A stretch of DNA of 64,000 nt from Enhydrobacter sp. (GTDB taxonomy: Bacteria > Pseudomonadota > Alphaproteobacteria > Reyranellales > Reyranellaceae). The position numbers were made by a program, and so were the translations under genes. The stretch's first letter is position 1, and each line of letters begins with the position of its first letter. The notes below the pieces were generated by a model. It was not told where the DNA came from and did not search any database. It was given only the letters and a program-made list of their open reading frames with translations. Positions 5,238 to 21,410 of the stretch are shown piece by piece. Where the stretch lies: positions 806,001 through 870,000 of the forward strand of contig CP075528.1 in NCBI GenBank assembly GCA_025808875.1, given 5' to 3'.

Positions 5238-5705
5238 ATGTACAAGCATCTCGTCCTCGCCGCTCTGCTGACGGCCGGCGCCGCGACCGCGTACGCTCAA
5301 CCGCAGCAGCAGCAGGCGACGCAGACCGCGCCGGCCGAACGCACCGTCTCGACCGGCGACTTCAATGCCAGCGGCCAGATGTCGGGCAACGCAATCATCG
5401 GCGCCCGGGTGCGCAACGACGCGCGCGACACGATCGGCACGATCGACGACGTCTATGTCGACAAGGACGGCACGATCAAGGCTGCGGTCGTGTCGGTAGG
5501 CGGCTTCCTCGGCGTCGGCGCCAAAGGCGTCGCGGTGAAGTGGGAGGATCTCAAGTTCGATCGCGACGACGATTCCCTCGTCGTCACCACCAGGCTCGGC
5601 AAGGAAGAGCTGCAGGCCATGCCCGACTACAACAAGACCGAGCGTCGCAAGCCGGCACCTCCGCCGGCCGCACCGATCACCAATCGCCCCGCCGGCGGCG
5701 GCTGA
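5238..5705 (+). CDS. Exported PRC-barrel domain protein
   Basis: The 155-residue protein has a signal peptide (MYKHLVLAALLTAGAATAYA, cleavage before QPQQQQ), a Gln/Thr-rich linker, and a PRC-barrel domain from about residue 48 to 125 (GARVRNDARDTIGTIDDVYV...VVSVGGFLGVGAKGVAVKW). The C-terminus is Pro-rich. PRC-barrel proteins of this type are common envelope or stress proteins in rhizobia and relatives; the ligand is unknown. The ribosome site GAAGGAGAGGCC precedes the ATG. A second, cytoplasmic PRC-barrel protein lies at 21048-21410. A strong hairpin follows the stop codon. Confidence 0.88.
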   Translation: MYKHLVLAALLTAGAATAYAQPQQQQATQTAPAERTVSTGDFNASGQMSGNAIIGARVRNDARDTIGTIDDVYVDKDGTIKAAVVSVGGFLGVGAKGVAVKWEDLKFDRDDDSLVVTTRLGKEELQAMPDYNKTERRKPAPPPAAPITNRPAGGG

Positions 5706-5775: not shown

Positions 5776-6156
5776 TCAGGTCGGCAGCGGCTGCTCGTCG
5801 AGCCAGCGCCGCGCGACGTGCATCTCGCGGAAAATCATGAGAGGGCGCCTGAGGCCGGCCGATGCCGAGGCGAAGAGCTGCGCCTGTGCGTAGCTCTCGT
5901 CCGATGCCGCGACGATGGCGACCGGTCCGACCTGGCCGTGCTGGGCGTAGAACATGACGCGTTGTCCCAGCGCCCGCAGGTTCTGCTCGTTGAGCGCCGT
6001 CGGGGTATGGGTGATCTCGAAGATCTTGCGATAGGCCATGCCGCCGTCGGCCGTCACCCCGGCGAAATACTGCTCGATGTCCGCCACGGTGACGTCGTCC
6101 TTGGCGACGGCCACCACCAGGCGGTTGGGATGGGAGATCGTCCAGTGGACCGGCAT
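5776..6156 (-). CDS. SpoIIAA/STAS-like small protein, copy 1
   Basis: The 126-residue soluble protein begins MPVHWTISHPNRLVVAVAKDDV. It shares with copy 2 (9583-9990) the opening strand pattern, an acidic helix before YRKIFE, GQVGPVAIVA, and RPLMIFREMHVARRWL at the end. This is the fold pattern of SpoIIAA-like/STAS-like small proteins that are numerous in rhizobia-type alphaproteobacteria. No function is established for this branch; canonical STAS proteins are anti-anti-sigma switches, but no phosphorylatable DS.G motif is visible here. The gene is divergent from ku. Confidence 0.75.
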   Translation of the reverse strand: MPVHWTISHPNRLVVAVAKDDVTVADIEQYFAGVTADGGMAYRKIFEITHTPTALNEQNLRALGQRVMFYAQHGQVGPVAIVAASDESYAQAQLFASASAGLRRPLMIFREMHVARRWLDEQPLPT

Positions 6157-6320
6157 GGGCGGAACCGTAGCAGATCGGGGGAGGCGACCGCCACGCCAGA
6201 GCTTGGGGCCGACGCGTGACGTCGACCACTGCCGGTCGTGCCCTGAGACACGCTGCAACGACGGGGCGCGCCGGAAGTTGACTCCGCCGACAGGCAGGAC
6301 GTTCGAGGAGGAGGTTCGAC

Positions 6321-7208
6321 ATGGCCGTGCGACCGACATGGGAGGGACATCTCCGGCTTTCGCTCGTGACCTGTCCCGTGGCGCTCTACAAGGCAACCGA
6401 CCCGAAGGGCGACCTGCACTTCAATCTCATCAACCCCAGGACCAACAACCGCGTGCGCCAGCGACTGGTCGATGCCGGCACCGGCGAAGACGTCGAGCGG
6501 CGCGAACTGGTCAAGGGTTTCGCCGTCGCCAAGGACCGCTACGTGCTGCTCGACAAGGACGATTTCGAGGCGGTGAAGCTCGAATCGACGCGGGTGATCG
6601 ATATCGAGGAGTTCGTGCCTGTCGCCTCGATCGACCGACTCTACTGGGACGAGCCGTATTTCCTGGTGCCGGCTGGAAAGACCGGCATCGAGGCCTTCGC
6701 CGTGATCCGCGCCGCCATGGAGCGCTCGCAGATGGTGGCGATCGGCCGCCTGGTGATGAGCACGCGCGAACGATTGTGCGCGCTCGAGCCGCGCGGCGAG
6801 GCGCTGCTGCTGACCACGTTGCGCATGCACGACGAGGTGCGCGGGGAGAAGGCGATCCCGCACGCCGATCTGCCCAAGGCCGATCGGCGCATGCTCGAGA
6901 TCGCCGAAAAGATCATCGAGCAGCAGAAGGGCGACTTCGATCCCTCGCACTTCAACGACCGCTACGAGGATGCGCTGCGCGAGGTCATCGAGCGCAAGAA
7001 GAAGGGCAAGCCGGTGCGGCCGACCATGCCTGACGAAACGGAGGACAAGGTGGTCGACCTGATGGCCGCCCTGCGCCAGAGCCTGAAGGGCAGCGGGGCC
7101 AAGCGCGAGCGGGCCGAGCGCTTCGTCGCCGCGAAGTCGTCGCGGTCAAGGGGGCGGCGTTCGACGTCGCGCCGCAAGGCGTCGGGCGGCCGCCGCCGGG
7201 CGGCCTAG
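6321..7208 (+). CDS. ku: Bacterial Ku, DNA double-strand break end-binding protein
   Basis: The 295-residue Ku homodimer subunit binds DNA ends and recruits LigD for non-homologous end joining. The start MAVRPTWEGHLRLSLVTCPVALY is typical. The Ku core follows (HFNLINPRTNNRVRQRLVD; VKGFAVAKDRYVLLDKDDFEAVK; YWDEPYFLVPAGK; DLPKADRRMLEIAEKII). The C-terminus after residue 250 is a Lys/Arg/Ser-rich tail of the kind that adds DNA-bridging ability. GAGGAGGAGG lies just before the ATG at 6321. No ligD is in the window. The stop overlaps that of the convergent small gene by 4 bp. Confidence 0.95.
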   Translation: MAVRPTWEGHLRLSLVTCPVALYKATDPKGDLHFNLINPRTNNRVRQRLVDAGTGEDVERRELVKGFAVAKDRYVLLDKDDFEAVKLESTRVIDIEEFVPVASIDRLYWDEPYFLVPAGKTGIEAFAVIRAAMERSQMVAIGRLVMSTRERLCALEPRGEALLLTTLRMHDEVRGEKAIPHADLPKADRRMLEIAEKIIEQQKGDFDPSHFNDRYEDALREVIERKKKGKPVRPTMPDETEDKVVDLMAALRQSLKGSGAKRERAERFVAAKSSRSRGRRSTSRRKASGGRRRAA

Positions 7209-7417
7209 CTCGTGCGCGGCGGTATCATGTCCTCGAAACGACGCCGGCCCAGCGCGGTGAGGCGGATGCGGCCCTCGCGTTCCTCGACGAGCGCAAGCAT
7301 TTTCAGGCGCTGCAGCGACGGCGTCCGCAGGTGCTTGGGCTTCGAGATGCCGTTGCCGACGCGACGCAAGACCGTCTGCTCGTTGATGCTGAGCGGCACA
7401 ACCAGTCCGCGTTCCAT
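7205..7417 (-). CDS. Small winged-helix-like protein (paralogue of 4812-5087)
   Basis: The 70-residue protein begins MERGLVVPLSINEQTVLRRV and ends with SLQRLKMLALVEEREGRIRLTALGRR..., a likely recognition helix and wing. GGAGGGG stands five bases before the ATG at 7417 and fixes the start. It resembles the protein encoded at 4812-5087 in the second half. Function is unknown; a small DNA-binding regulator is plausible. Confidence 0.6.
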   Translation of the reverse strand: MERGLVVPLSINEQTVLRRVGNGISKPKHLRTPSLQRLKMLALVEEREGRIRLTALGRRRFEDMIPPRTS

Positions 7418-7604
7418 GCTCCCCTCCACACCCGGTATCGAAGCGCGTCGGGAACGCGGTGGCAAGGATTGAATGGTGAAGATTGCATGATCCAGCGCGG
7501 ATCAAGTTGCAGGGGCAACGCGGAGATTCCGCGGACGGAACCGGCAACAACTCGCGATGCGCGGCGTTCTGCAAGGCAGGAAACGACAGCGTCAGGAGTT
7601 GCCG

Positions 7605-7895
7605 ATGCATCGACTGCTTATCGTCGTCCTGCTGGCGGCGCTGGGGATCGGGCCGGCGGCATGGGCGGAAGAGCCGTTGCCGGGCGCGAAGTCCGACGTG
7701 CCGCGTACGAGCCCCGAGCCGACCAACCAGAGCGCCGAGGAGATCATCATCAAGGCGAAGCTGCGCGCCGCCGGCGTGCGCAAGGTCAACAATCTCGCGC
7801 GCCATCCCGACGGCACCTGGGAGGGCCGCGGCATGAAGGGCGACGAGGAGATCGCCGTTCAGGTCGACACCGACGGCAACGTCAAGTTCCGCTGA
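7605..7895 (+). CDS. Small exported protein with a PepSY-like domain
   Basis: The 96-residue protein has a signal peptide (MHRLLIVVLLAALGIGPAAWA, cleavage before EEPLPG). The mature part, EEIIIKAKLRAAGVRKVNNLARHPDGTWEG followed by AVQVDTDGNVKFR, has the helix-then-strands layout of PepSY-like modules, where a helix precedes a two-strand hairpin and a terminal D..G.V. CAGGAG precedes the ATG at 7605. PepSY modules are often periplasmic inhibitors or binding modules; the role here is unknown. Confidence 0.65.
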   Translation: MHRLLIVVLLAALGIGPAAWAEEPLPGAKSDVPRTSPEPTNQSAEEIIIKAKLRAAGVRKVNNLARHPDGTWEGRGMKGDEEIAVQVDTDGNVKFR

Positions 7896-9051
7896 GAGCC
7901 CGGCCGGGCCGCAGCGCCTCCAGCGTCTCGACATAGGCCCGCACGACCGGCAGCAGCAGCTCGGCGCTCGTGCCGGACGCGCTGTCGGCCGGCGTGTGGA
8001 ACAGGCGATGCACGGCGGCCATGCCGAAGAAGGCGGGGTAGCCCGCACCCTGCACGTCGCGGATCTCGCCGACCGCCGCCTCGCGGCCGCCGAGGCGCGT
8101 TCCGTCGACTGCGGCAAAGGTCCGATCGGTCAATGCCTCGAGCGGGGCCGAGCGGGCGACGACCCGCAGCAGCATATCGTGGCTGGCGAGCGTGGCGCCG
8201 AAATGCGCCCACACCACGGTCGAGTCCGGCGCCGGTGCCGCGGCGCGCAGGAAATGCTGCATGCCGCCATGCCCGATCTCGTGCCCGGCGGTGGCGACGA
8301 ACAGGAGGTCGACGTCGGCGAAGCGCGCCGCCGCCAGTCGCGCCGTGGCGAGGAACCCCGCGATGCCGGGTCCGCGTTCGCAGGTGCTGGTGAACCAGCT
8401 CGTCACCGGCGTCGACACGACGAACCATCGCCCCGTGCCACGGTCGAGGCGGCCGACGACGTTGTGGCCCGGCACGCTCTCGCGATAGCGGCCGTCGATC
8501 GCCAGGGTGACGTCGCCGGCGCAGGCATCGAGCGTGGTCCGGTCGCGCGGAGCCGCCAGCACGACCGGGCAAGGCCACGGCGGCATCGACTGGTCGACGT
8601 TGTAGGTGAATATCTCGCCGCTCGGATGGTCGATGTCGAGCAGCAGGGCGGCGGGATCGCGCGCGAAGGCTTCCTCGAGGGCCAGGCGATGGCCCGCCGT
8701 GAGATAGGCGCCGCGATCGTAGGGCAGGGTGAGGCGCACGAAGCATCCCGTGGCGGGCCCGGCCGGCACGATCGGCGCGGTGAGGCGAAAGCTCGCCTGC
8801 GCGGGCGGCGGCCACCACTGCGGCACGACGGCGAGGTCGCGTCCGCTGACGCGCAACGCCGCGGACACGCACTCGTACTGGCGGGCGACGCTGAACGCCT
8901 GTCGCTCGACGGCGAACCCGGCTTTGCCGAGTTCGTCGGCGATCCAGCCCAATGCCGCGTCCGCGCCGGGCGAACCGAAGCGGTGGACGCCGAAACCCTC
9001 GTAGCGAAGAACGTCGGCAAACAGCCCGTCACCCGACAGCGAATAGGACAT
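7882..9051 (-). CDS. M28-like metallopeptidase-fold protein
   Basis: The 389-residue protein has features of the zinc aminopeptidase (M28) fold: VPGHNVVGRL near residue 190 where the family has a H.D/G.H metal site region, then ATAGHEIGHGGMQHFL around residue 255, WAHFGATLA, and HTPADSASG near the end, matching the terminal HTP.D motif. There is no clear signal peptide. The first zinc-ligand motif is weak, so it may be a diverged or inactive member. Start: GAGGAGGG lies 11 bases before the ATG at 9051; an in-frame ATG at 9072 would add seven residues. Its 3' end overlaps the PepSY-like gene by 14 bp, tail to tail. Confidence 0.6.
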   Translation of the reverse strand: MSYSLSGDGLFADVLRYEGFGVHRFGSPGADAALGWIADELGKAGFAVERQAFSVARQYECVSAALRVSGRDLAVVPQWWPPPAQASFRLTAPIVPAGPATGCFVRLTLPYDRGAYLTAGHRLALEEAFARDPAALLLDIDHPSGEIFTYNVDQSMPPWPCPVVLAAPRDRTTLDACAGDVTLAIDGRYRESVPGHNVVGRLDRGTGRWFVVSTPVTSWFTSTCERGPGIAGFLATARLAAARFADVDLLFVATAGHEIGHGGMQHFLRAAAPAPDSTVVWAHFGATLASHDMLLRVVARSAPLEALTDRTFAAVDGTRLGGREAAVGEIRDVQGAGYPAFFGMAAVHRLFHTPADSASGTSAELLLPVVRAYVETLEALRPGRALSGT

Positions 9052-9072
9052 GACCGGCGCATCCCTCCTCAT

Positions 9073-9085
9073 TACCCGCCGGGTA
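9073..9085. promoter_or_regulatory. 13-bp palindrome in a divergent promoter region
   Basis: TACCCG-C-CGGGTA is a perfect inverted repeat between the divergent peptidase-like and NTF2-like genes, within 25 bp of the peptidase start codon. It looks like a repressor operator, but no cognate regulator can be named. Confidence 0.4.
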
Positions 9086-9143
9086 GTCGATCGACGGGCG
9101 CGATGGGGCTAGCTCTGCCTGCAGGCAATCGAAGGAGCAAGCC

Positions 9144-9578
9144 ATGTCGTCAGTCACTGCCCCGTCCCCGCGCGCTCCGCTCCGCGGCTGGACCGTCGAC
9201 ACCTTCAAGCGCTTCTGGGCCAGGCCGTCGCTCGACCACCTCGAGGGAATCGATGCGATCCTCGCCCCCGACATCGTCGGTTACTGGCCGCGCCCGATCG
9301 GCAAGGTCGAGGGCATCGCCGCCTACACCGGAATCATCGAGGCCTTGCTGCGCACGGTGCCCGATCTGTCGCTGTCGGTGCCCGATCATGCCGTCTCGGG
9401 CAACCTCAGCTTCGTGCGCTGGGTGGCCGCCGGCACCGGCCCCGACGGCCGCTTCGAGGCGCTGGGATGCGATCGCGTGCGCGTGCGCGACGACGGCCTC
9501 GTCGTCGAGAACTACATCTTCTGTGACCATCCCTTTTTCGCCGCGGTGGCCGGACGCGCCGGGCGCCGCCCCGGCTGA
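9144..9578 (+). CDS. NTF2/SnoaL-like fold protein
   Basis: The 144-residue cytoplasmic protein has the SnoaL-like layout: an N-terminal helix with a catalytic-type region (FKRFWARPSLDHLEGIDAILAPDIVGYWPR), a helix (EGIAAYTGIIEALLRTVPDL), then four strands ending FCDHPFF. SnoaL-like proteins range from polyketide cyclases and dehydratases to non-enzymatic binding proteins, so the substrate is open. It is monocistronic and runs into the convergent SpoIIAA-like copy 2, 4 bp away. Confidence 0.75.
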   Translation: MSSVTAPSPRAPLRGWTVDTFKRFWARPSLDHLEGIDAILAPDIVGYWPRPIGKVEGIAAYTGIIEALLRTVPDLSLSVPDHAVSGNLSFVRWVAAGTGPDGRFEALGCDRVRVRDDGLVVENYIFCDHPFFAAVAGRAGRRPG

Positions 9579-9582
9579 CGCT

Positions 9583-9990
9583 TCAGGCGGCCGTCGAGCT
9601 GTCGGCGGCCGCCGCGTCGTCCTGTGCCGCGAGCCATTGGCGGGCGGCGAAGATGTCGCTGAAGATGCGCATCGGCCGATCGGCGCTGGCGACGGTGCGG
9701 CAGATGTCGGCCAGCCTTTCGTGGCGCTGCGGCCCGGCGACCACGGCGAATGGTCCGACCCGGCCGTTGCCGCGCGCGACGAAGGACTGCATGCGCTTGC
9801 GGAAGGCGTCGACGTCCGCCGCCGTCAGCGCCGAGGTGCCGCCGGTCGCGTCGAAGATCTTTCGATAGCCGATGGCGCGCGCCTTGATGACGGCGTCGAA
9901 ATAGCCGTCGAGATCGCCGAGCTTGACCTCACCCTCGGTCTTGCCGACGATCATACGATCGAGATGGTAGACGGTGACGTAGATCGGCAT
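9583..9990 (-). CDS. SpoIIAA/STAS-like small protein, copy 2
   Basis: The 135-residue paralogue of copy 1 (5776-6156) shares GYRKIFDATGG, GRVGPFAVVAGP and RPMRIFSDIFAARQWL, and differs mainly in an Ala/Asp-rich C-terminal tail (DDAAAADSSTAA). The start MPIYVTVYHLDRMIV lines up with copy 1 and fixes the ATG at 9990. Function is unknown; copies 1 and 2 form one subtype of the four-member local family. Confidence 0.75.
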   Translation of the reverse strand: MPIYVTVYHLDRMIVGKTEGEVKLGDLDGYFDAVIKARAIGYRKIFDATGGTSALTAADVDAFRKRMQSFVARGNGRVGPFAVVAGPQRHERLADICRTVASADRPMRIFSDIFAARQWLAAQDDAAAADSSTAA

Positions 9991-10091
9991 GGCATCAACT
10001 CGCCCGCCAATATGCGTCCGCCGCCGCGGCGCGGCAATCGGTCGGATTGTGTTAATCGTTTGCGCGCTGCGCCCTAGGGTTGCGCCGTGGG

Positions 10092-10949
10092 TTACACGGC
10101 CGCCTCGCTCGCCGGGTCGCCGGCGATGCGACTGTGCCACATGACGCGCGGCTGGGTCATGTCCCAGGGCGTCGCCTGGTGCAACAGGCAGCGATTGTCC
10201 CACACCACGACGTCGCCCGGCGACCAGGTGTGATGGTAGATGCGCGGCGGCCGGCAGGCGAAGGCGACGAGCTCCTCCAGCAGGCGGTCGGACGCCTCGC
10301 GACTGAGGCCGGGAACGTTGTGGGCGTGACGGCCGATCAGCAACGATTTACGGCCGGTCTCGGGATGGGTCTTCACCAGCGGGCGCAACGGGACCGGCCC
10401 GTCATGGAAGCCGTAGCCGCTGTACTGGCCGTCGCCGGCCCTGGCGTCGTGGCCGAGCTTCGACTGGCTGTAGTGCAGCGAGTGATGGGCCGACAGACCG
10501 CCCAGCTTGTCCTTCAGGTCGTCGTCGAGCGCGTCGTAGGCGGCCCGCATGTCGGCCCAACCGGTCTGTCCGCCGGCACTCGGCACGACTTCGGCGCTGA
10601 ACACCGCGCCCTTGGCCTGAACCGGCATGTAGGTGCTGTCGGCATGCCAGCCCATGTTGCCCTTCAGCACCTTCATCATGTCGTCGTTGTCCTTTTCCAG
10701 GCGCAGCGTGCCGTCGGACTTGACGTTGCTGAGGGCGGCCATCTCGAACTCGAGAGGCCCGAAACGGCGGGCGAAGGCGATCTGTTGGTCGCGCGACAGA
10801 TGCTGGCCGGGAAAGACGAGCAGCGCGCGGTCGAGCCAGGCGGCATAGAGGTCGCGCCACAGGGCGTCGTCGAGGTCGGCGATGCGAAAGCCGGTGACGA
10901 TCGCGCCGAAGGTGGCGTCGAGCGGTCGAACGTCGAAAGCCTGGGCCAT
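10092..10949 (-). CDS. TauD/TfdA-family Fe(II)/2-oxoglutarate dioxygenase
   Basis: The 285-residue cytoplasmic dioxygenase uses Fe(II), O2 and 2-oxoglutarate. Metal ligands are His102 and Asp104 (GWHADSTYMP) and the distal His in DNRCLLHQATPWD; the downstream Arg (QPRVMWHSR) would bind 2-oxoglutarate. The start MAQAFDVRPLDATFGAIVTG is canonical, and GGGAGGAA precedes the ATG at 10949. Family members hydroxylate taurine, 2,4-D and other sulfonates or phenoxy acids. No linked transporter indicates the substrate. A second member lies at 46922-47779. Confidence 0.9.
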   Translation of the reverse strand: MAQAFDVRPLDATFGAIVTGFRIADLDDALWRDLYAAWLDRALLVFPGQHLSRDQQIAFARRFGPLEFEMAALSNVKSDGTLRLEKDNDDMMKVLKGNMGWHADSTYMPVQAKGAVFSAEVVPSAGGQTGWADMRAAYDALDDDLKDKLGGLSAHHSLHYSQSKLGHDARAGDGQYSGYGFHDGPVPLRPLVKTHPETGRKSLLIGRHAHNVPGLSREASDRLLEELVAFACRPPRIYHHTWSPGDVVVWDNRCLLHQATPWDMTQPRVMWHSRIAGDPASEAAV

Positions 10950-10977
10950 GTCGTTCCTCCCCGGAGAGCCGACTATA

Positions 10978-11298
10978 TCACTTGCGCGGCGTCGAGGAAT
11001 CGTAAGGCGCGCGCGGCTGCAGATAGGGCGAGGTTTCGCGAATGGACGGATAGGGCGGCGGCGGGTCGGCCGGCTGGCCACCCGGCGGCACGGCCGGCGG
11101 CAGCTGCGGATCGCGAGTCTGGTGGGGATAGATCGGACCGGTGCTGCCCGCGCCGGCACCGGGACCGATGCCGCTGCCGATGCCCGTGCTGTTGCCGATC
11201 GGGCCGGGCTGCAGGGGCGCTTGCGCCTCGCCCGCCGATGGGGCGGCCAGGCCGACGAGCGTCGCCAGCACGACGGAAAGACACGCCGATCGGGTCAT
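10978..11298 (-). CDS. Small exported proline/glycine-rich protein
   Basis: The 106-residue protein has a signal peptide (MTRSACLSVVLATLVGLAAPSAGEA, cleavage before QAPLQP). The mature chain is low-complexity: a Gly/Ile/Pro repeat (STGIGSGIGPGAGAGSTGP), then Pro-rich PPAVPPGGQPADPPPPYP. It has no domain I recognise and is probably disordered in the periplasm or envelope. It lies 4 bp downstream of SpoIIAA-like copy 3, so the two are likely co-transcribed. Confidence 0.6.
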   Translation of the reverse strand: MTRSACLSVVLATLVGLAAPSAGEAQAPLQPGPIGNSTGIGSGIGPGAGAGSTGPIYPHQTRDPQLPPAVPPGGQPADPPPPYPSIRETSPYLQPRAPYDSSTPRK

Positions 11299-11302
11299 GC
11301 GA

Positions 11303-11692
11303 TCAATGGATGTCGATGGGCTCGAACAGCGGATTGTCGAGGTCGAGCAGGGCATAGGCCTCGCCGAGCGTCGGCACGATGATCGGCTCGCGATGCCCCG
11401 CCAGCCGCTGCTGGTCGCGAATGGTGCGGGCGAATTCCTCCCCCGCGGCGCGCGGCGCCACGATGACGCGGTCGGCGATGATCGACGGCGCCTGGCCGCG
11501 TTGCATGACCTTGCTGATAGGCACGGCGACGGCATCGACCGCGGAGAAGTCGTAGAGCCCACGCACCGCGCCTTCGCGCGCCAGGAAGGTGAGCACGTTG
11601 CGATCGTGCGTCTCGAAGTCCTGCGAGCTCATGACTCCGCTGATCCGCACCAGCAGCACTCGTTGCCGACGTTCGAACCACAGGGTGAACAT
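11303..11692 (-). CDS. SpoIIAA/STAS-like small protein, copy 3
   Basis: The 129-residue protein begins MFTLWFERRQRVLLVRISG and aligns from its first residue with copy 4 at 19934-20374 (MFNLAFDRRTRLMLVRFGG). Shared features are the F/L-D/E-RR strand, a helix with LARLD/ETHDR, GLYDFSAVDAV versus VIHDFTAIERL, and an acidic helix before the end. Copies 3 and 4 form a second subtype of the local family. It is probably cytoplasmic; function is unknown. It lies upstream of the small exported proline-rich gene. Confidence 0.7.
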   Translation of the reverse strand: MFTLWFERRQRVLLVRISGVMSSQDFETHDRNVLTFLAREGAVRGLYDFSAVDAVAVPISKVMQRGQAPSIIADRVIVAPRAAGEEFARTIRDQQRLAGHREPIIVPTLGEAYALLDLDNPLFEPIDIH

Positions 11693-11860
11693 TCTTCACG
11701 CCAGCCGCAGGTGAAACGTTCGTTGCATCGTGAGAGCTGGCATCTTCTTCTTCAGTCACCGTCGAAAACCGATGCTTCGATCCTTAGCGCAACCCAGTGT
11801 GCGGTGAAAGCAAAGCTTCGTTCAGCGACTCGGAAGAAACATTTCCATTTCGCCGACGGC

Positions 11861-12103
11861 TCACTCCCCGTCGTGTGTCGATCTGGACCAGCGGAAGACG
11901 AACGCGGCGATCATCGCGACGGAGCCGCCGACCCACAATAGAAGCGCGAGGATTCGCGCGTCGCCGACAAACGCGAGGGCGATGCTCGCGATGGTGAGCG
12001 TGACGTGCAGCGTGGCGAACAGCACGAGGTACTCGAACGAGTGATACGACCGCCGGCGTTCGCGAATCATCTGCCGTTCGGCGAGGTTGGCGATGTCGGT
12101 CAT
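11861..12103 (-). CDS. Small membrane protein, possibly aa3-type oxidase subunit IV-like
   Basis: The 80-residue protein has a polar head with RRRSYHSFEYL followed by two membrane helices (LVLFATLHVTLTIASIALAFVG and ILALLLWVGGSVAMIAAFVF). The head-then-helix pattern (S/H-F-E-x-L directly before a helix) recalls the short bacterial aa3-type cytochrome oxidase subunit IV, but those usually have one helix and I see no oxidase genes here. GGAGAC precedes the ATG at 12103. It may be co-transcribed with the tiny ORF upstream. Confidence 0.55.
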   Translation of the reverse strand: MTDIANLAERQMIRERRRSYHSFEYLVLFATLHVTLTIASIALAFVGDARILALLLWVGGSVAMIAAFVFRWSRSTHDGE

Positions 12104-12133
12104 CGTGGCGTCTCCGTGGATCGGGCGTCGGGA

Positions 12134-12271
12134 TCAGAGGGCGGTGAACATGGCGACGGCGGTCAGGCCAACCAGCATGCAGGCAGCCAGGCGCATGACG
12201 CGGGGACGGCACGAGTCCTCGCCGTCGCGCCGCTGCCAGGGATCGATGTCGATGTCGAGATCGTGGCGCAT
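12134..12271 (-). CDS. Possible small single-pass membrane protein
   Basis: A 45-residue frame has a charged N-terminus (MRHDLDIDIDPWQRRDGED) and a C-terminal hydrophobic helix (RLAACMLVGLTAVAMFTAL). It ends 30 bp before the next small membrane gene in the same direction. There is no strong ribosome site. Support is positional and compositional only. Confidence 0.35.
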   Translation of the reverse strand: MRHDLDIDIDPWQRRDGEDSCRPRVMRLAACMLVGLTAVAMFTAL

Positions 12272-12472
12272 GCGGGAAACCCGACGGGAGTTGCGGTCAG
12301 TGAGCGGGGCTATCACTGCACTGCGGCGGCGAGGCCGGCGCTCGTCGCCGGGCCCGGCGACCGCGCGAGGTCGATCGGGATCACGTTGCTTCCTTCCGGC
12401 GAGAGGGACACCGATATGCGGAGTCAACTCGTCGACGGCGGGAAGGGTTGCCGCCGCGCGGCAGCGGCGGTT

Positions 12473-12724
12473 TCAGCGCGTGATGTTGGGGCCGATGTAG
12501 GTGCCCGGCGCCCCGCTCGGATTCGCGGGATCGGCATTGAGTCCGCTCGGCGGCGGGCGGCGGTTGTCGCGCGTCGTCAGCCCGGTGTAAGTGCCCGGGT
12601 TGGGAGCCGAGGGAGGCCGCGACATCGGCACCTCGCCCGGCTTGGGCAGGTCGCTCTCGGGTTCACTGCAGGCGGCGCCCATGCAGGCGGCCAGGATCGC
12701 GATTGTCGGATGCAGGCGCTTCAT
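12473..12724 (-). CDS. Small lipoprotein
   Basis: The 83-residue protein starts MKRLHPTIAILAACMGAACSE. Two possible lipoboxes are present (ILAAC with Cys14, or MGAAC with Cys19). The mature part is a Pro/Asn/Gly-rich, probably disordered chain with GTYTGLTTRDNRRPPP and GTYIGPNITR as a loose internal repeat. GGGGAGA stands before the ATG at 12724. It is probably anchored in the outer or inner membrane; function is unknown. Confidence 0.65.
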   Translation of the reverse strand: MKRLHPTIAILAACMGAACSEPESDLPKPGEVPMSRPPSAPNPGTYTGLTTRDNRRPPPSGLNADPANPSGAPGTYIGPNITR

Positions 12725-12790
12725 CGTCGGGTCTCCCCGCTCGATGTTAGGCACTCCGTCGGCACATTCAATCGGTACGGCGCAGGGCAA

Positions 12791-12982
12791 CTATCGCTCG
12801 CTCCCGGCCGTCGGGCCGCTCTCGGAAAGCAACTTGCCCGTCATGGGATTGACGATGTGGACACGCGCGCAGGCAAGGCAATGTTGCGCCACATAGTGAT
12901 TCTCGCCCGGTTCGATCTCCTGGTGAGTGGCGCCCTGCACCATCAGACCTGTCGTGGGACAACAGAACAGGAAGACGCGCAT
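12791..12982 (-). CDS. Small conserved CxxC protein
   Basis: The 63-residue protein MRVFLFCCPTTGLMVQG...HYVAQHCLACARVHIVNPMTGKLL matches, from memory, a short protein found widely in rhizobia-type genomes that has the same order of elements: F-CCP-TG-VQG, then Y-A-x-x-CLAC-R-H-x-VNP-TG. Two cysteine pairs (CC and CxxC) suggest a small zinc or redox site. I start it at the ATG at 12982; the frame is open to 13027. No function is known. It is divergent from the kinase region. Confidence 0.65.
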   Translation of the reverse strand: MRVFLFCCPTTGLMVQGATHQEIEPGENHYVAQHCLACARVHIVNPMTGKLLSESGPTAGSER

Positions 12983-13083
12983 ACGTCTTGTCAGTGAACG
13001 AACGGACGTCGGGCCTTCAACATCCATTCAAAATGAATGGAATTTCGTTGAGCGCCTTGAGATGGATCAAGGCCGGCGCGATC

Positions 13084-13299
13084 TCAATCGGCGGCGTCCG
13101 CGTGGCCGGTGGGCGTCCCGTTGCGCCAGGTGGGCGTGGCTGGAGGAGACACAGGCTGGGCGGCCATCGGGCGCCGGCCCGACCGGGCCAGCCTCTCTGC
13201 GGCCTGGCGAATCGAAATCGTCCGCCGCACCTCACCCAATTGGCGCAACAACGCCGTCTCCTGCCGGACAAGCAGAGCCGTGCTGGCGGAAACGGTCAC
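13084..13299 (-). CDS. Possible small hypothetical protein
   Basis: A 71-residue frame starts at a GTG at 13299 with GAGGTG six bases upstream. The first half (LVRQETALLRQLGEVRRTIS) is a plausible amphipathic helix or coiled coil; the second half is Pro/Thr-rich. The opposite strand is also open here, so this is only a candidate. It is one of the few things in the 510-bp stretch before the first histidine kinase. Confidence 0.35.
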   Translation of the reverse strand: MTVSASTALLVRQETALLRQLGEVRRTISIRQAAERLARSGRRPMAAQPVSPPATPTWRNGTPTGHADAAD

Positions 13300-13496
13300 G
13301 GTTGCACCTCACGGATTGGTCACCAAGCGCCTGCGGAACCAACGCCGGGTGTGGCAAAAAGGTTGCACTCCCGATCCGCCTCCTGTGGGCAAATTTGGAA
13401 GCTCGTTCTCTCCGGATTGGACGTGATTGTCCCTGCCCAAGTGCGCCGGGTTTGGCACTATCAATGCAAATAATCCACGGCCGCTTCGGTTTGACC

Positions 13497-16400
13497 ATGA
13501 CGATTTCGGACGGCGCAAAGCCCGCGCCGCAGTCGACTGTTTTGCGGCGCAGGTCGATCCGCTCGAGGATCCGATCGATTTCGAACCGGGTTCGGTTGGC
13601 GCTCGGGATGCGGGGCGTGGCGTGGGCGGCGGGTGCGCTGTGCGTCGGTCTCGCCTCGGCGATCCTGTCGATCGTCGCCGTGGCCACATCGATCGACCAC
13701 GCCGGAGCCGATCGCAGACACCGGATCGCGACGGAGATACTCGAAGTGGATCGCACGACCGGAGCGTTCGTGCGCGCTCTGGTCGCTTCGCCCGTCGAGA
13801 GTGTCGGCTCGCCGTCGATGGCCGCCCTGTGGTCGGATTTCCGGGCGTCGATCGATCGCGCTTGTACGCTCGCCGAGGCCGCGCCGGCCGCGGCGGGGAG
13901 CCTCGACGAGATCTGCTCACGGCACGACAGGCTGGCTGCGGACGTGGTGCCCGCGCTCGAGCGCCTCGCCCGGGAGGGCCGGCCGGTTATCTCCGATCCG
14001 CTGCTGTCGGAGCTGGTGTCGGTGCGCGAAGCGATCAACGCGCTGGCTACCCGTTCCATGCGCGATGCCGACGATCACATCCATCACATGGCGGACGGCT
14101 ACCGCCAGGCGCTCGTCATCCTGGTCGTGAGCACGGCGGGATTCGTCTGCGCCGCCGTCATCCTCGTCCTGCTTGTCGGCAGGGCGTCGGTGCAGCACCA
14201 TGAGCAATCGCTCAAGGCGCGCCAGGCTGCCGAGCTCTTGCGCGAGACGATGGACGCCCTGCCGGCGGGCGTCGTCGTCTACGACCCCACCGATCGGCTC
14301 ATGATGTTCAACAGCGTCGCCGCCTCGATCACACCGGCCCTGAGCGAACCCGGCGCGATCGGCCGCAGCTACGAGGAGATGGCCCGCGACACCGCGCGCC
14401 GCCTCGAGGCGGCGGGACACGGTCCCCAGCCCGTCGATGAGTGGATCGAGCGCTTCAACAGCAAACGTCACCAGCGTACGCGCCAGGCTGTGGACGGACG
14501 CTGGTTCGACTGGTCGGAAAGCAGGACGCCGAGCGGCCTGACGGTCGGCCTCAGGGTCGACGTCACCGAGGTCGAACGAGCGCGCGCGGACTACGCGCGG
14601 CTGGTCGATTCGCTGGCCGACGTGACCTACAAGATCGACATCCAGACGGGCCGCTTCACCTTCGTGAGCGCGTCCGCCCGCGAGATGTTCGGGGTGGCAC
14701 CGGAGAGCATGGTGGGGCGCCACTTCCTCGAGTTCGTCGCCGCCGAATCGCGCGAGCGTGTGCAGCGGTCGACGACGCGCGCCTACGATCCGAACGACAA
14801 GGGCACCCTCGGCCAGTTCTCGATGCTGACCGGAAGCGGCGAGGTCCTGCCTGTCGAGGTGCGGTCGCGCCGCCATGTCGACGAGAACGGTGCGATCATC
14901 AGCAGCGGCGTGATCCGCGACATCGGCGACCGCTTCCGGCTGGAGCAGCAGATCGAGCAGCAGCTCGCGGAGCTCCAGCACGCCCGGGCCGAGTACCGTT
15001 CGCTCGTCGATTCGCTCGGCGATATCGTCTACAAGATCGACGCCGCGACGAGCCGCATCACCTTCGTCAACGCCGCCGCAGCGCAGTTCTTCGGCATGCC
15101 GATCGAGCACATCGTCGGCTCCGACTTCGTCGAACGTGTCGATCCCGAGCACCAGCAGATGCTGCGCGACGGCATCGCCCGCGAGTTCAGGAACACCGGC
15201 AGGCTGATCGAGGTGCGCTTCCGCGTGCGGGCGGCGGGCGACGAGTGGCGCCATGTCGAGATTCGCTATCGGCGCAGCCTCGACGAGGCCGGGCAGCTGA
15301 TCGTTTCCGGCGTGATGCGCGACGTCGAGGAGGCCGTGCGCATGGAGCGGCGCATCGCCGAGCAGGTGACGGCGCTGGAGCGCGCACGCGCCGAGTATCA
15401 GACGCTGGTCGATTCACTGTCGGACATGATCGTCGAAGTCGACATCTACAAGGGCGTCTTCACCTTCGCCAGCGCGGCCGCCGCCGACCTGCTGGGCGTT
15501 CCGGCCTCGCAGATGATCGGTCGACGGGTGTTGGACTACATCGTGACCGAGGATTTCGGGGCGATGAACGACACCGCGCGAGCCCTGCTGCGCGCCGCCG
15601 ACGGCAAGCCGCAGCACCTCATGACGCGAGTGCGTCATGCCGACGGCGGCGTGCGTCATCTCGAAGTGCGCATGCGCAAGACGCACCAGAATACGGAGAC
15701 CACGATCGTGAGCGGCGTGGTCCGCGACGTCACCGATCGGGTCGAGCTCGAACGGCGCCTGGCCGGGGAAACGGCGCGGCTGCGATCGATCGTGGAATCG
15801 ACTGGCGCCCTGATCGTGCTGGCCGACCGCGACCTCAACGTGACGATGGTCAATTCGGGCTTCAGCGCCATCACCGGCCTCGCCGCCTCCGACGCGCTCG
15901 GCCGGCCGCTGTACGAGGTGCTGGCGTGTCCGGCCGACGCCGCGTTCGACAGGCCGCTGCAGCTTGCCGTCAAGATGGGTTCGCGGCTGATCGCCCTGAC
16001 GACACGGCCGGTCACGACCCCGGACGGCGAGTTGAGCCACGTCGTCCTTCTCGGTGTCGACGACACCGGCAGGCGCGAGGCGGAGAACGCGCTGCACGAC
16101 GTCGAACGGTTTGCGACGGTCGGCGAAATGGCGGCCACGATGGCGCACGAGCTCAGCCAGCCGCTCCAGGTGATCAACATCGCCAGTGCCTCGGCGACCG
16201 ACGAGCTCGATCATCCGGCGGACGAGCAGAAGGGGCCGGATATCGCCTTCTTGCGCGCGCGGCTCGATCGTATCGCGCGCCAGGTCGAGAACGCCAGCCG
16301 GGTCATCGGCGACCTCAGGGCCTTCGTGCGCGGCACCAACACGCCCGAGAATGTCGGCGTGTTCGATCCGCGGCGCTCGATCGAAACGGCGGTCGGGCTG

Positions 16401-16805
16401 ACCGGCTACGGCGTGCGGCAGGCGGGCGCCGAGCTGCGCGTGCGGGTCGCCGACGACCTGCCGCGGGTGGCCGGCGAATCGAGCCGCCTCGAGCAGGTCC
16501 TGGTCAACCTGATCAACAACGCGCGCGATGCCGGCGGTCGCGCCATCGACATCGCGGCGGCGACCGTCGAGCGCGACGGCAGGCGGTGCGTGCGTATCTC
16601 CGTCGAGGACAGCGGTCACGGCATCGACCCCGAGATCCTGTCGCGCCTGTTCGTGTCCTTCGTCACCACCAAGGCCAAGGGCAAGGGTACCGGCCTCGGC
16701 CTGCGCATCTGCCGGCGCATCGTCGAGGAAATGGGCGGCACCATTGCCGCCGCGAATCGTGCCGAGGGCGGTGCGCGCTTCGATGTGCTGCTGCCGGCTG
16801 CCTAG
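13497..16805 (+). CDS. Membrane PAS-array sensor histidine kinase 1 (five PAS domains)
   Basis: The orphan kinase has about 1102 residues. Membrane helices at about 41-65 and 205-228 flank a periplasmic sensor of about 140 residues. Five PAS domains then begin near residues 248, 365, 499, 633 and 762; three share the opening LVDSLxDxxxxxD. The HisKA phosphoacceptor is His884 (ATMAHELSQPLQ), and the HATPase domain has N box LINNARDAGG, G1 DSGHGID and G2 GKGTGLGL. The start at 13497 gives the same N-terminal length as kinase 2; the frame is open to 12927 but that part looks non-coding. There is no receiver domain and no response regulator in the window. Confidence 0.9.
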   Translation: MTISDGAKPAPQSTVLRRRSIRSRIRSISNRVRLALGMRGVAWAAGALCVGLASAILSIVAVATSIDHAGADRRHRIATEILEVDRTTGAFVRALVASPVESVGSPSMAALWSDFRASIDRACTLAEAAPAAAGSLDEICSRHDRLAADVVPALERLAREGRPVISDPLLSELVSVREAINALATRSMRDADDHIHHMADGYRQALVILVVSTAGFVCAAVILVLLVGRASVQHHEQSLKARQAAELLRETMDALPAGVVVYDPTDRLMMFNSVAASITPALSEPGAIGRSYEEMARDTARRLEAAGHGPQPVDEWIERFNSKRHQRTRQAVDGRWFDWSESRTPSGLTVGLRVDVTEVERARADYARLVDSLADVTYKIDIQTGRFTFVSASAREMFGVAPESMVGRHFLEFVAAESRERVQRSTTRAYDPNDKGTLGQFSMLTGSGEVLPVEVRSRRHVDENGAIISSGVIRDIGDRFRLEQQIEQQLAELQHARAEYRSLVDSLGDIVYKIDAATSRITFVNAAAAQFFGMPIEHIVGSDFVERVDPEHQQMLRDGIAREFRNTGRLIEVRFRVRAAGDEWRHVEIRYRRSLDEAGQLIVSGVMRDVEEAVRMERRIAEQVTALERARAEYQTLVDSLSDMIVEVDIYKGVFTFASAAAADLLGVPASQMIGRRVLDYIVTEDFGAMNDTARALLRAADGKPQHLMTRVRHADGGVRHLEVRMRKTHQNTETTIVSGVVRDVTDRVELERRLAGETARLRSIVESTGALIVLADRDLNVTMVNSGFSAITGLAASDALGRPLYEVLACPADAAFDRPLQLAVKMGSRLIALTTRPVTTPDGELSHVVLLGVDDTGRREAENALHDVERFATVGEMAATMAHELSQPLQVINIASASATDELDHPADEQKGPDIAFLRARLDRIARQVENASRVIGDLRAFVRGTNTPENVGVFDPRRSIETAVGLTGYGVRQAGAELRVRVADDLPRVAGESSRLEQVLVNLINNARDAGGRAIDIAAATVERDGRRCVRISVEDSGHGIDPEILSRLFVSFVTTKAKGKGTGLGLRICRRIVEEMGGTIAAANRAEGGARFDVLLPAA

Positions 16806-16929
16806 GAGGAGGCCGGGCGTGGGCAGCTCGCTCTTGCGCCGCCGCGACCGGGGTGCATTTGCAGGTGAAGCCCGTGCGGTTGTCGGTCACAATCCGTCCC
16901 GCTCGGTAAACGAGCGGGGGAAAGCCTGA

Positions 16930-19575
16930 ATGTCGACCGTCCCGTCGCGCGTGTCGGGTCCTGCAGCGGTCTCCAAACTCGCCCAGCTCGCGGACCTCGT
17001 GCGCTCGTTTCCGAGCCAGGTCCGGCTGGCGCTCGGCGTCCGCGGCGTCGCGCTGGCGACCGCGGCCGGCGTGGTCGGCCTGTTGTCGTGCATCGTCTCC
17101 TTCGCCGACATCGCGCTGTCGTTGCACCACACCGACCTCGATCGCAAGCGTCGGCAGGCCGCCGAGATCCTGGCCCTCGACAACACCAATCGGCTGCTGA
17201 TGCGCACAATCTTCGGCATGTCGTCGGGCCGCGTGCCGGTGCCGGCCGGCGAGGCGGCGCCGGTGCTCGAAGTGTGGCAGCAGTTCCAGCAATCGATGAT
17301 GTCGGTCTGCCGCACGGCCGCCGGCCCGGTGCCGCAACGCGAGCGGCTGCAGAAGGCCTGCGCCGATCCGCAAGCCCTGTTCGCCCGGCTGACGCCCGAT
17401 ATCGAGGCCCTCGACCCACCGCGGCGTCTGCTCGATCCCGCCACGGTGCGCGAGCTGCTGGCCATTCGCGACGACATCAACGCCCTCGCCGTCGGGGTGG
17501 CGCAGGACGCCGACAGCATGGTCGGAAAGCTGATCGACGACTATGGCAGGGCGCTGTTCGTCCTCACGCTCAGCACCACCGGCTTCGTCGGCGCGGGATT
17601 GGTGCTCATCCTGCTGGTCGGCCGCGCCTCGGTCGACCATCACCGGCTGTGGTTGAGCGCCCAGCAGGCGCGCGACATGGTCGACCGCGAGCGGACGCGC
17701 TATCGGCGCCTCGTCGATTCGCTGTCGGACACGGTCTACACCGTCGACCGCAACGGCGTTCTGACCTTCGCCAGCGCGGCGGTGCATGAACTGCTCGGCA
17801 TGCCGGCCGACCGCATCGTCGGCCGCAAGCTGCGCGAATTCGTCGACGCCGCCGACGTCGAGCGCGCCCTTGCCGAGGCGCGTGCGCAGTTCCAGTCGCA
17901 GGACGTCGGCGTGCGCCAGGTCCATCTGCGGCTGCGCCGTGCCAACGGCGCCGAGCGCCACGTCGAGATCCGCTCGCGCAAGCCGGCCGGGGACGAAGGC
18001 ACGGATGTGGCCCTTGTCGGCATCATCCACGACGTCACCGAGCGGGTGGATCTGGCCGAACGGCTGCAGCGCCAGATGGCGGAAGCCGAGGCGGCGCGCA
18101 ACGACTACCAGTCGCTGGTCGATTCCGTGAGCGACGCGGTGTTCAAGGCCGATGCAAAGAGCGCCGTCATCACCTTCGCCAGCGCCGCCACGGCGGAGGT
18201 CATGGGCATGCCGCCGGCAGAGATCGTCGGCACGCGGACCTTCGACCAGATCCACGCCGACGACGTCGAATACGTGATGAGCGCAACCAAGGCGGCGCTG
18301 CAGGGCAATACCCCGCGCGTCGAACAGCTGCAGTACCGCATCCGTACGCCGGCCGGCGAGACCAAGCACGTCGAGACGCGCTTTCGCAAGACACCCGGGC
18401 CGGATGGCCGCTCGCTGGTCGTCGGCGTGGTGCGCGACGTCGAGGAGCGCGTCCGCATGGCGCGCCGGCTCGAGGACGAGATGGCGCGCCTCAGGTCGAT
18501 CGTCGAATCGAGCGGCGCGCAGATCCTGATGGTCGATCGAGAACTCAACGTGGTCATGGTCAACAGTGGCTTCACGGCGATGACCGGACTCGGCGAGGCC
18601 GACGCCATAGGCCGACATCTGAAGAAGGTGGTCGACTGCCGGCTCGACCCGAAGGTGCTCGACGACTGGTTGGCCGCGCCGCGTCACGGCCGGCCGGTCG
18701 CGCCTGCCCATTACAGCAACCAGATCCGGGATCCGCAGGGCCGGCTGCGCCTGGTTTCGGTCACCGCCACGCCGGTGGTCGATGCGCACGGCCTGGTCAG
18801 CAACATCGTCTTCCTGGGCGTGGACGACACCGAGCGCCGCGAGGCCGAGCAGGCGCTGTTCGCCGTCGAGCGGCTGAGCACGGTGGGCGAGATGGCGGCG
18901 ACCATGGCGCACGAGATCAACCAGCCGCTGCAGGTCATCAACCTCGCGTGCGAGTCGGCCAAGGACGAGATCGACGCTGCCGAGCTGCGCGGCACGGTTC
19001 CGACGCCGGGGTTCCTGCGCGCCAAACTCGAGCGCATCGGCCAGCAGATCGATCGCGCCAGCCGTATCGTCGGTGAACTGCGGGCCTTCGTGCGCGGCAC
19101 CGGCAGCGAGGAGTCCGAGCGACCGTTCGAGGCCGTCGAGGCGGTGCGCGCCGCCATCGAACTGATGGCGGTTCCCCTGCTGCGCCAGGGCGCCCAGGTA
19201 AGCCTGACGCGGGCCGACGCGCCCTCGCTTGTCATGGGCCATTTCGGCAAGCTTGAGCAGGTACTGGTCAACCTGATCAACAATGCACGCGACGCCGGCG
19301 CCCGCTCGATCGACGTCTCGGTGTCGGCGGTCGCCGGCGAGGGCCCGCACCGCTTCGTCGCCATCGCCATCGACGACGACGGCCGAGGCATTGCCGCCGA
19401 CGTCCTGCCGCGCCTGTTCGTCGACTTCGTCACGACCAAGGAGCGCGGCAAGGGCACCGGTTTCGGCCTGCGCATCTGCCGGCGCATCGTCGAGGAGATG
19501 GGCGGGACGATCACCGCCCGCAACCGCGATGCCCGCGGTGCCTGCTTCGAGATCGTGCTGCCGGCGATGGCATAG
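16930..19575 (+). CDS. Membrane PAS-array sensor histidine kinase 2 (three PAS domains)
   Basis: The 881-residue paralogue of the preceding gene has the same plan: helices at about 40-64 and 208-231 around a periplasmic domain, PAS domains starting near 261, 396 and 521, the phosphoacceptor His661 (ATMAHEINQPLQ), and HATPase motifs LINNARDAGA, DDDGRGIA and GKGTGFGL. The N-terminal segment VRLALGVRGVALA and the C-terminal half closely match kinase 1, while two middle PAS units are absent. The ATG at 16930 follows GGGGGAAA. The genes are 124 bp apart in the same direction and arose by tandem duplication. No partner regulator is adjacent. Confidence 0.92.
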   Translation: MSTVPSRVSGPAAVSKLAQLADLVRSFPSQVRLALGVRGVALATAAGVVGLLSCIVSFADIALSLHHTDLDRKRRQAAEILALDNTNRLLMRTIFGMSSGRVPVPAGEAAPVLEVWQQFQQSMMSVCRTAAGPVPQRERLQKACADPQALFARLTPDIEALDPPRRLLDPATVRELLAIRDDINALAVGVAQDADSMVGKLIDDYGRALFVLTLSTTGFVGAGLVLILLVGRASVDHHRLWLSAQQARDMVDRERTRYRRLVDSLSDTVYTVDRNGVLTFASAAVHELLGMPADRIVGRKLREFVDAADVERALAEARAQFQSQDVGVRQVHLRLRRANGAERHVEIRSRKPAGDEGTDVALVGIIHDVTERVDLAERLQRQMAEAEAARNDYQSLVDSVSDAVFKADAKSAVITFASAATAEVMGMPPAEIVGTRTFDQIHADDVEYVMSATKAALQGNTPRVEQLQYRIRTPAGETKHVETRFRKTPGPDGRSLVVGVVRDVEERVRMARRLEDEMARLRSIVESSGAQILMVDRELNVVMVNSGFTAMTGLGEADAIGRHLKKVVDCRLDPKVLDDWLAAPRHGRPVAPAHYSNQIRDPQGRLRLVSVTATPVVDAHGLVSNIVFLGVDDTERREAEQALFAVERLSTVGEMAATMAHEINQPLQVINLACESAKDEIDAAELRGTVPTPGFLRAKLERIGQQIDRASRIVGELRAFVRGTGSEESERPFEAVEAVRAAIELMAVPLLRQGAQVSLTRADAPSLVMGHFGKLEQVLVNLINNARDAGARSIDVSVSAVAGEGPHRFVAIAIDDDGRGIAADVLPRLFVDFVTTKERGKGTGFGLRICRRIVEEMGGTITARNRDARGACFEIVLPAMA

Positions 19576-19663
19576 CGGGCGCCGGCTCGGGTCGCTCCGC
19601 TTTGGAGTGGATCGCGCCTGTTGGGGGCATGACTGCTCCGCTCTGGAGGTGTTGCAACGTGCG

Positions 19664-19933
19664 ATGGCGCATCGCCGAGCCTATCTCCGCGCCATGCAGT
19701 TCTTCCCCGCCAATACCGGCACGGACGGTCGCGACGACGCTCCGCGCCGCCCTCCGCTCGGGTTGCGCACGATCCTGACGATCGCCGTCTGGTTTGGCGC
19801 CGCGCTCCTGCTGACCGATACGGTCGGCAACGTCCTGCGCATCTCGCAGACGACGCGTCCTGTCGCGAGCTACGAGCCCCCGCCGACGCCGCCCGTCTAT
19901 CGGGGCGCGATCATGCCGGTCAGCGGCCGCTAG
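19664..19933 (+). CDS. Small single-pass membrane protein
   Basis: The 89-residue protein has a polar N-terminus, one membrane helix (TILTIAVWFGAALLLTDTVGNVL) and a Pro-rich tail (YEPPPTPPVYRGAIMPVSGR). GGAGGT is 14 bases before the ATG at 19664; an internal ATG at 19694 would give 79 residues. It follows kinase 2 by about 90 bp in the same direction and is convergent with SpoIIAA-like copy 4, whose stop abuts its own. Function is unknown; a partner of the kinase is possible but unsupported. Confidence 0.55.
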   Translation: MAHRRAYLRAMQFFPANTGTDGRDDAPRRPPLGLRTILTIAVWFGAALLLTDTVGNVLRISQTTRPVASYEPPPTPPVYRGAIMPVSGR

Positions 19934-20374
19934 CTAGGCGGCCGATGCCACCGCGACACGGCGCTCGTCGACCGGCGTCCAGGAATTGGCGATCGTCGTG
20001 AAGGCGGGTGGCGGCAGGCCGAGTATCGCCGCCGCCTCGTCCATCGTGCGCGCCATCACCGGCGCGGTGTGACCGGCCGCCGACTGGTAGGTGCCGTAGA
20101 GGCGCATCAGGCCGAAGATCGCGGGCTGCGGCGCGACGACCGCGCGAGGCAGTCGCGAACAGAATTGCTGCTGCTGGGCACGCGTCGCCATCTGCGCCGC
20201 AGTCACGTCGAGGCGTTCGATCGCCGTGAAGTCGTGGATCACGCCGGCCGGCGCCAGCAGCGCGGCCAGACGGGGACCTCGTTCGTCGAGTCGGGCAAGA
20301 TCGTCGAGGCTCAGGGCCCCACCGAACCGCACCAGCATAAGTCGGGTGCGACGGTCGAAAGCGAGGTTGAACAC
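19934..20374 (-). CDS. SpoIIAA/STAS-like small protein, copy 4
   Basis: The 146-residue protein begins at a GTG at 20374 (MFNLAFDRRTRLMLVRFGG), supported by GAAGGA eight bases upstream and by alignment from residue 1 with copy 3 (11303-11692). The shared pattern is a charged first strand, LDDLARLDERGPRLAALL, HDFTAIERLDV and a C-terminal MDEAAAILGL helix. The extra C-terminal tail (NSWTPVDERRVAVASAA) is unique. Function is unknown. It borders the kinase pair on its downstream side, as copy 3 does upstream. Confidence 0.7.
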   Translation of the reverse strand: MFNLAFDRRTRLMLVRFGGALSLDDLARLDERGPRLAALLAPAGVIHDFTAIERLDVTAAQMATRAQQQQFCSRLPRAVVAPQPAIFGLMRLYGTYQSAAGHTAPVMARTMDEAAAILGLPPPAFTTIANSWTPVDERRVAVASAA

Positions 20375-21000: not shown

Positions 21001-21047
21001 GCCCGGCAGTGTCGTTGATCCGGCATCTCAAACCGAAGGGAGAGCCC

Positions 21048-21410
21048 ATGGTCGACGAAACCAAGATCACCGACGGATCGCTGATCGCTGCCGAGAAGGT
21101 GAACGGCACCAACGTCTACAATCGCGCCGGCGACAAGCTCGGCCACGTCGAGGACATCATGATGGACAAGGTGAGCGGTCGCGCCTGCTATGCCGTCATG
21201 TCGTTCGGCGGATTCCTCGGCATCGGCGACAAGCACTGGCCGCTGCCCTGGTCGGCGCTGACCTACGATCGCTCGAAGGAGGGCTTCGTCGTCGACCTCG
21301 ACAAGAAGATGCTCGAGGGCGCACCGAGCTACGACGACGACTTCCTGTGGACCCCCGACTACGGCCGGACCGTCGATCGCTACTACAACGTGCCCAGCTA
21401 CTGGGCGTGA
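21048..21410 (+). CDS. Cytoplasmic PRC-barrel domain protein
   Basis: The 120-residue protein has no signal peptide. The PRC-barrel runs from about residue 20 to 90 (GTNVYNRAGDKLGHVEDIMMDK, then MSFGGFLGIGDKHWPLPW) and is followed by a Tyr/Asp-rich end (DYGRTVDRYYNVPSYWA). Its GGFLGIG.K motif matches GGFLGVGAK of the exported PRC-barrel protein at 5238-5705. AAGGGAGAGCCC precedes the ATG. Such proteins are often associated with envelope stress or photosynthetic-type PRC-H folds; the partner is unknown. Confidence 0.88.
   Translation: MVDETKITDGSLIAAEKVNGTNVYNRAGDKLGHVEDIMMDKVSGRACYAVMSFGGFLGIGDKHWPLPWSALTYDRSKEGFVVDLDKKMLEGAPSYDDDFLWTPDYGRTVDRYYNVPSYWA

Follow-up and report, generated by a model that had tools for sequence, protein, structure and literature searches.

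Partner switching, in which STAS-fold proteins such as SpoIIAA take part, depends on a serine that can be phosphorylated, a serine kinase of the GHKL type and a phosphatase of the PP2C type. On structural grounds, the carriage of nonpolar ligands or an action at the membrane has been put forward for the SpoIIAA-like proteins of Shewanella; the open form of one solved relative contains a large hydrophobic cavity, and the phosphoserine is absent from most of that family (PMC2954212). The stretch of DNA analysed here (64,000 nucleotides, hereafter the window; part of a closed 5.19 Mb genome) carries four small STAS-like genes around a pair of sensor histidine kinases, for which the initial annotation had put forward a joint signalling unit and a local amplification. 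The reading that we hold to be probable is that the four genes are members of a single-domain STAS-fold family that has been multiplied and scattered in Reyranella, with three of them (A1, A2 and B1) forming an old block and the kinases a separate module at its edge, and that the encoded proteins may act in ligand binding or as adaptors.

All four open reading frames were found on the minus strand at the coordinates and in the two subtypes originally assigned to them: A1 (5776..6156; 126 aa, with one predicted STAS-fold domain) and its paralogue A2 (9583..9990; 135 aa) in subtype A, and B1 (11303..11692; 129 aa, predicted STAS fold) and its paralogue B2 (19934..20374; 146 aa, GTG start) in subtype B. 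Their codon usage resembles that of real genes. Identity within subtypes is 31% for A1 versus A2 (E 3e-21) and 32% for B1 versus B2 (E 4e-17). No likeness between subtypes A and B was found by BLAST; a profile alignment of the two spans 120 columns (E 5.5e-7, probability 92%), and the subtypes are therefore distant homologues. Subtype B does lie on each side of the kinases, with the refinement that the nearest gene left of kinase 1 is c27 (11861..12103, minus strand; an 80-aa small membrane protein), upstream of B1 and followed by it; on the other side, B2 is convergent with kinase 2 and begins ~0.36 kb past its end. PRC-barrel genes flank the cluster (5238-5705 and 21009-21410, both plus strand), and no tRNA marking an island was found in the window.

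AlphaFold models built from alignments of relatives were confident for both A1 (pLDDT 92) and B1 (pLDDT 96). The best solved structure for the B1 model was SpoIIAA (Z 10.6) and the best for the A1 model were 4xs5, 4qtp and 2q3l (Z 10.5-11.0), with RsbS also among the fold matches. In these confident predicted models A1 and B1 have a STAS/SpoIIAA-like fold, and A2 and B2 would share it by homology; the STAS-like character first proposed from the sequence is thus borne out by fold prediction, with STAS matches at Z 10-11. As judged from the model comparisons, the fold by itself is not highly specific, because C-terminal processing proteases fill part of the match list (Z 8-10), but the small full-length matches are STAS proteins. 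Pfam gave a divided answer on the same question: all four window proteins fell under the cut-off of PF11964 (SpoIIAA-like; the best was A2, at 20.4 bits against 25) and a whole-genome search at E 0.001 returned zero matches, but 13 of the 35 family A members matched it weakly at E ≤0.01 (best 6.5e-8). Sequence-profile searches against solved structures found no STAS protein for either subtype, the best B match being a zinc finger aligned to the tail of long B members. These long members (L027, L028, L029, L031 and L038) are subtype B proteins of ~280 aa with a C-terminal zinc-ribbon-like extension that weakly matches DUF6510 and zinc ribbons; the same neighbouring genes accompany four of the five.

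Across the genome, subtype A is present in 13 dispersed copies and subtype B in four, two of which are a tandem pair at 1.295 Mb. Copy numbers of subtype A range from 3 to 29 per Reyranella genome, and 25 Reyranella genomes carried on average 11.8 A and 1.7 B genes each. Outside the genus, relatives were few and distant among 289 genomes of the class, with zero in one other genus of the family and none found on the viral contigs searched. Because the A copies are dispersed, recur throughout Reyranella and have so few relatives elsewhere, the amplification is genus-wide and not local as previously described; the copies are old, and most are located elsewhere in the genome. Recent local duplication was ruled out, A1, A2 and B1 being nearer to the orthologues of other species than to one another. 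In trees, A1 falls among its orthologues from other species (present in most sampled Reyranella genomes, mostly at 70-82% identity), A2 with its orthologues from L075 and L139, and B1 with those from L075, L112 and L139; no close relative of B2 was found in the sequence set compared.

Chance alone might have brought a large, scattered gene family together with a frequent kinase type here, the clustering being a post hoc pick. The A pair fits such an account, since two A genes within 4 kb are expected at 11% (A1 and A2 alone, P 0.11, not unusual), as does the lack of any tendency of A genes toward kinases. The presence of 4 of the 17 family members inside 14.6 kb does not (P 1.6e-4 under uniform scatter, itself a post hoc figure), and the A1-A2-B1 part is not chance because it is conserved in other species. 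We consider chance as the whole explanation very unlikely.

The three genes belong to an older conserved block, its order read from few genomes, that comprises c27, B1, usually a TauD-family dioxygenase gene (10092..11159, minus strand, downstream of B1), A2, c55 (7205..7429, minus strand; 74 aa, resembling a small winged-helix protein) and A1. Adjacency of B1 and TauD is kept in G024, G005 and G011, with one intervening gene at L112; c27 is kept with B1 and TauD in relatives, the B1 orthologues standing in a c27-B-TauD arrangement, and in relatives c55 lies directly upstream of A1. The order reads c27, B1, another gene, TauD, an amidohydrolase, several genes, c55 and A1 at L112; B1, that amidohydrolase gene, A2, c55 and A1 in G001 (L075); and B1, A2, a sensor gene, A1 and two further A genes at L139. 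Within contig reach (L139 starts just before B1), no kinase of the window type was found between or beside the genes of these three blocks. Conservation of the A1-A2-B1 block in relatives without the kinases mostly explains the clustering.

Several further features of these neighbourhoods were observed. A Ku-type DNA end-joining gene (6378-7208, plus strand) intervenes between A1 and c55 in the window and looks like an insertion into this pair, because A1 and c55 are adjacent (about 7-20 bp apart) at L075 and L112. At the A1 locus of L139, L142 and L143, subtype A genes stand in tandem, two to four per array, and dCache sensor genes (c30) occur near the arrays in L139 and L143, whose contigs extend far enough. 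One group of A genes (L066-L068, L071-L074, L146 and L148) has constant neighbours across species, with a zinc-type oxidoreductase gene upstream and, in most, dioxygenase-like and enoyl-CoA hydratase genes downstream. Overall, the neighbours of A genes are varied and indicate no single role.

Kinase 1 (13596..16805, plus strand) and kinase 2 (16930..19575, plus strand; 881 aa) are, as first described, tandem rightward paralogues (45% identical), and they share a layout of membrane sensor region, PAS repeats, HisKA and HATPase. Both gave Pfam matches to HisKA and HATPase (the HisKA match of kinase 1 just below the cut-off, at 26.3 versus 26.9 bits) and have several PAS domains, and the H-box and N/G boxes are visible in both translations. 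The kinase 1 reading frame opens at 12927 and coding support starts only at ~13.5-13.6 kb, so its true start is uncertain. The reported absence of a response regulator extends well beyond the cluster: none lies within about 50 kb, the nearest of the genome's 51 receiver-domain matches being ~54 kb away. Relatives of this kinase type, defined by a profile of the membrane sensor region, were found in 24 of 41 Reyranella genomes. Sixteen of 28 such kinases have a receiver gene within 1.5 kb (some are close to a contig end, so that a neighbouring receiver or STAS gene may escape notice), most often 70-130 bp off and on the same strand, which is an ordinary two-component arrangement. A kinase also stands divergent beside c27 and TauD genes, or TauD alone, without B, in G003 and G002.

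Whether kinases and STAS genes form a unit was addressed by a whole-genome neighbourhood test based on family searches, in which 1 of the 13 family members outside the window lay within 5 kb of a HATPase gene, equal to the chance expectation. Pooling four genomes, we found no enrichment of subtype A near any histidine kinase (3 of 36 within 5 kb, expected 2.1; one genome, G022, contributed only its six A positions among the matches listed). Against this general result stands the window kinase type itself, of which 6 of the 12 members without a receiver adjoin an A or B gene, compared with 0 of the 16 with one (Fisher P 0.002 by kinase); here and in the lineage counts below, the 1.5 kb adjacency limit and the lineage grouping were chosen after seeing the loci, which makes the P values generous. 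Four of the six belong to one clade, the fifth is in a convergent pair in G020, and the sixth is kinase 2, next to B2. In the four species of the clade, R. massiliensis included, an A gene lies 200-255 bp upstream of the kinase on the same strand, and these A genes form one clade, as do their kinases. Lineages with an adjacent A or B gene number 2 of 12 once the window is excluded, against an expected 0.1 (P 0.005). The neighbourhood survey cuts both ways: no general attraction of A genes to kinases, yet an adjacency above chance for this one type, which suggests some link where the receiver is missing.

Such adjacency would also follow if the STAS proteins were accessory partners replacing the missing receiver, the kinase binding or controlling the adjacent A or B protein and the signal passing by protein contact. 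By lineage, however, kinases with and without a receiver do not differ significantly in such adjacency: it is seen in 3 of 6 receiver-less versus 0 of 7 receiver-bearing lineages (P 0.07) or, leaving the window out, in 2 of 5 versus 0 of 7 (P 0.15). Moreover, kinase and STAS gene are convergent, with no common promoter, in two of the three cases, one of them the window, the cases involve different subtypes, A genes generally do not follow kinases, and HisKA histidine kinases normally hand their phosphate to receiver aspartates. We regard this alternative as unlikely, and as distinctly more doubtful the notion that one Reyranella membrane PAS kinase type has more than once swapped its receiver for an adjacent STAS protein, giving a non-classical kinase-STAS pair. 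The bracketing of the kinases by STAS genes looks largely coincidental, and of the unit originally proposed what stands is the above-chance adjacency in a kinase type that is mostly found beside a receiver. Also counting against the favoured reading, a dCache histidine kinase of a different type in G013 (L193:2165-4733, minus strand) is followed after 7 bp by a subtype B gene on the same strand, with receiver genes on the side opposite the B gene.

Classical partner switching would cast the STAS proteins as anti-sigma-factor antagonists that a GHKL kinase phosphorylates on serine and a PP2C phosphatase resets. The fold matches to SpoIIAA and RsbS agree with it, as does one strong HATPase_c_2 match in the genome (at 1.448 Mb, distant from the window, the closest A gene being ~27 kb away), but SpoIIAB and RsbW are without HisKA, unlike the window kinases, and no GHKL serine kinase (HATPase_c_2) was found beside the window STAS genes. 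Nor was a conserved Ser/Thr found at the start of helix 2, where the A alignment has S in 11, T in 9 and D in 9 of 35 sequences and the B alignment S in 8 of 30 (the switch position being inferred from model secondary structure and PMC2954212, not from residue-level superposition). A search of the genome for the SpoIIE phosphatase (PF07228) gave zero matches; it did match in 5 of 14 control genomes. Given the missing switch serine and the missing phosphatase, this mechanism, which the initial annotation had invoked, is ruled against, and we rate it as highly improbable.

The favoured reading, expansion of a STAS-fold family with a kinase module at the edge of an old block, starts from the multiplication of SpoIIAA-like single-domain proteins in Reyranella and their scattering through its genomes. 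A1, A2 and B1 belong to the older block carried by relatives without the kinases, B2 would be a separate, divergent copy, and the kinases would be a separate two-component module at the block edge, of a type that usually has a receiver neighbour in relatives. The A and B proteins would function without needing the window kinases, most likely, judging by the fold, as small soluble ligand-binding or adaptor proteins comparable to the putative nonpolar-ligand carriers of Shewanella and not as phosphorylated partner switches; on the best reading they are probably ordinary SpoIIAA-like proteins, expanded in one genus. An eye-catching cluster can, in other words, come from a conserved block and a kinase pair at its edge. 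The genus-level expansion (3-29 copies) concerns small STAS-fold proteins, most of which escape curated models, and our literature search found neither a description of it nor a study of the STAS-fold family in Reyranella. If the kinase link were true, a histidine kinase could signal to a STAS protein with no receiver in between, a link best sought in R. massiliensis and the three other species whose kinase has an A gene upstream.

Set against described systems, the window kinases have the same domain layout as FixL/AtoS-like PAS sensor kinases with HisKA and differ from these two-component kinases in having no receiver gene nearby, although most relatives of their type do. The SpoIIAA/RsbV anti-sigma-factor antagonists have the predicted STAS fold in common with A1 and B1, whereas the A and B proteins are without the conserved serine, with no SpoIIE in the genome and no GHKL serine kinase alongside. 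A likeness to CRAL-TRIO-like carriers of nonpolar ligands has been suggested only for the Shewanella relatives. Those PF11964 proteins (2OOK and 2Q3L) resemble the window proteins in being small single domains with the same predicted fold (Z 8.5-10.5), in having no conserved phosphoserine, and in weak sequence matches; the window proteins differ from them in lying below the Pfam cut-off and in belonging to subtypes strongly multiplied in one genus.
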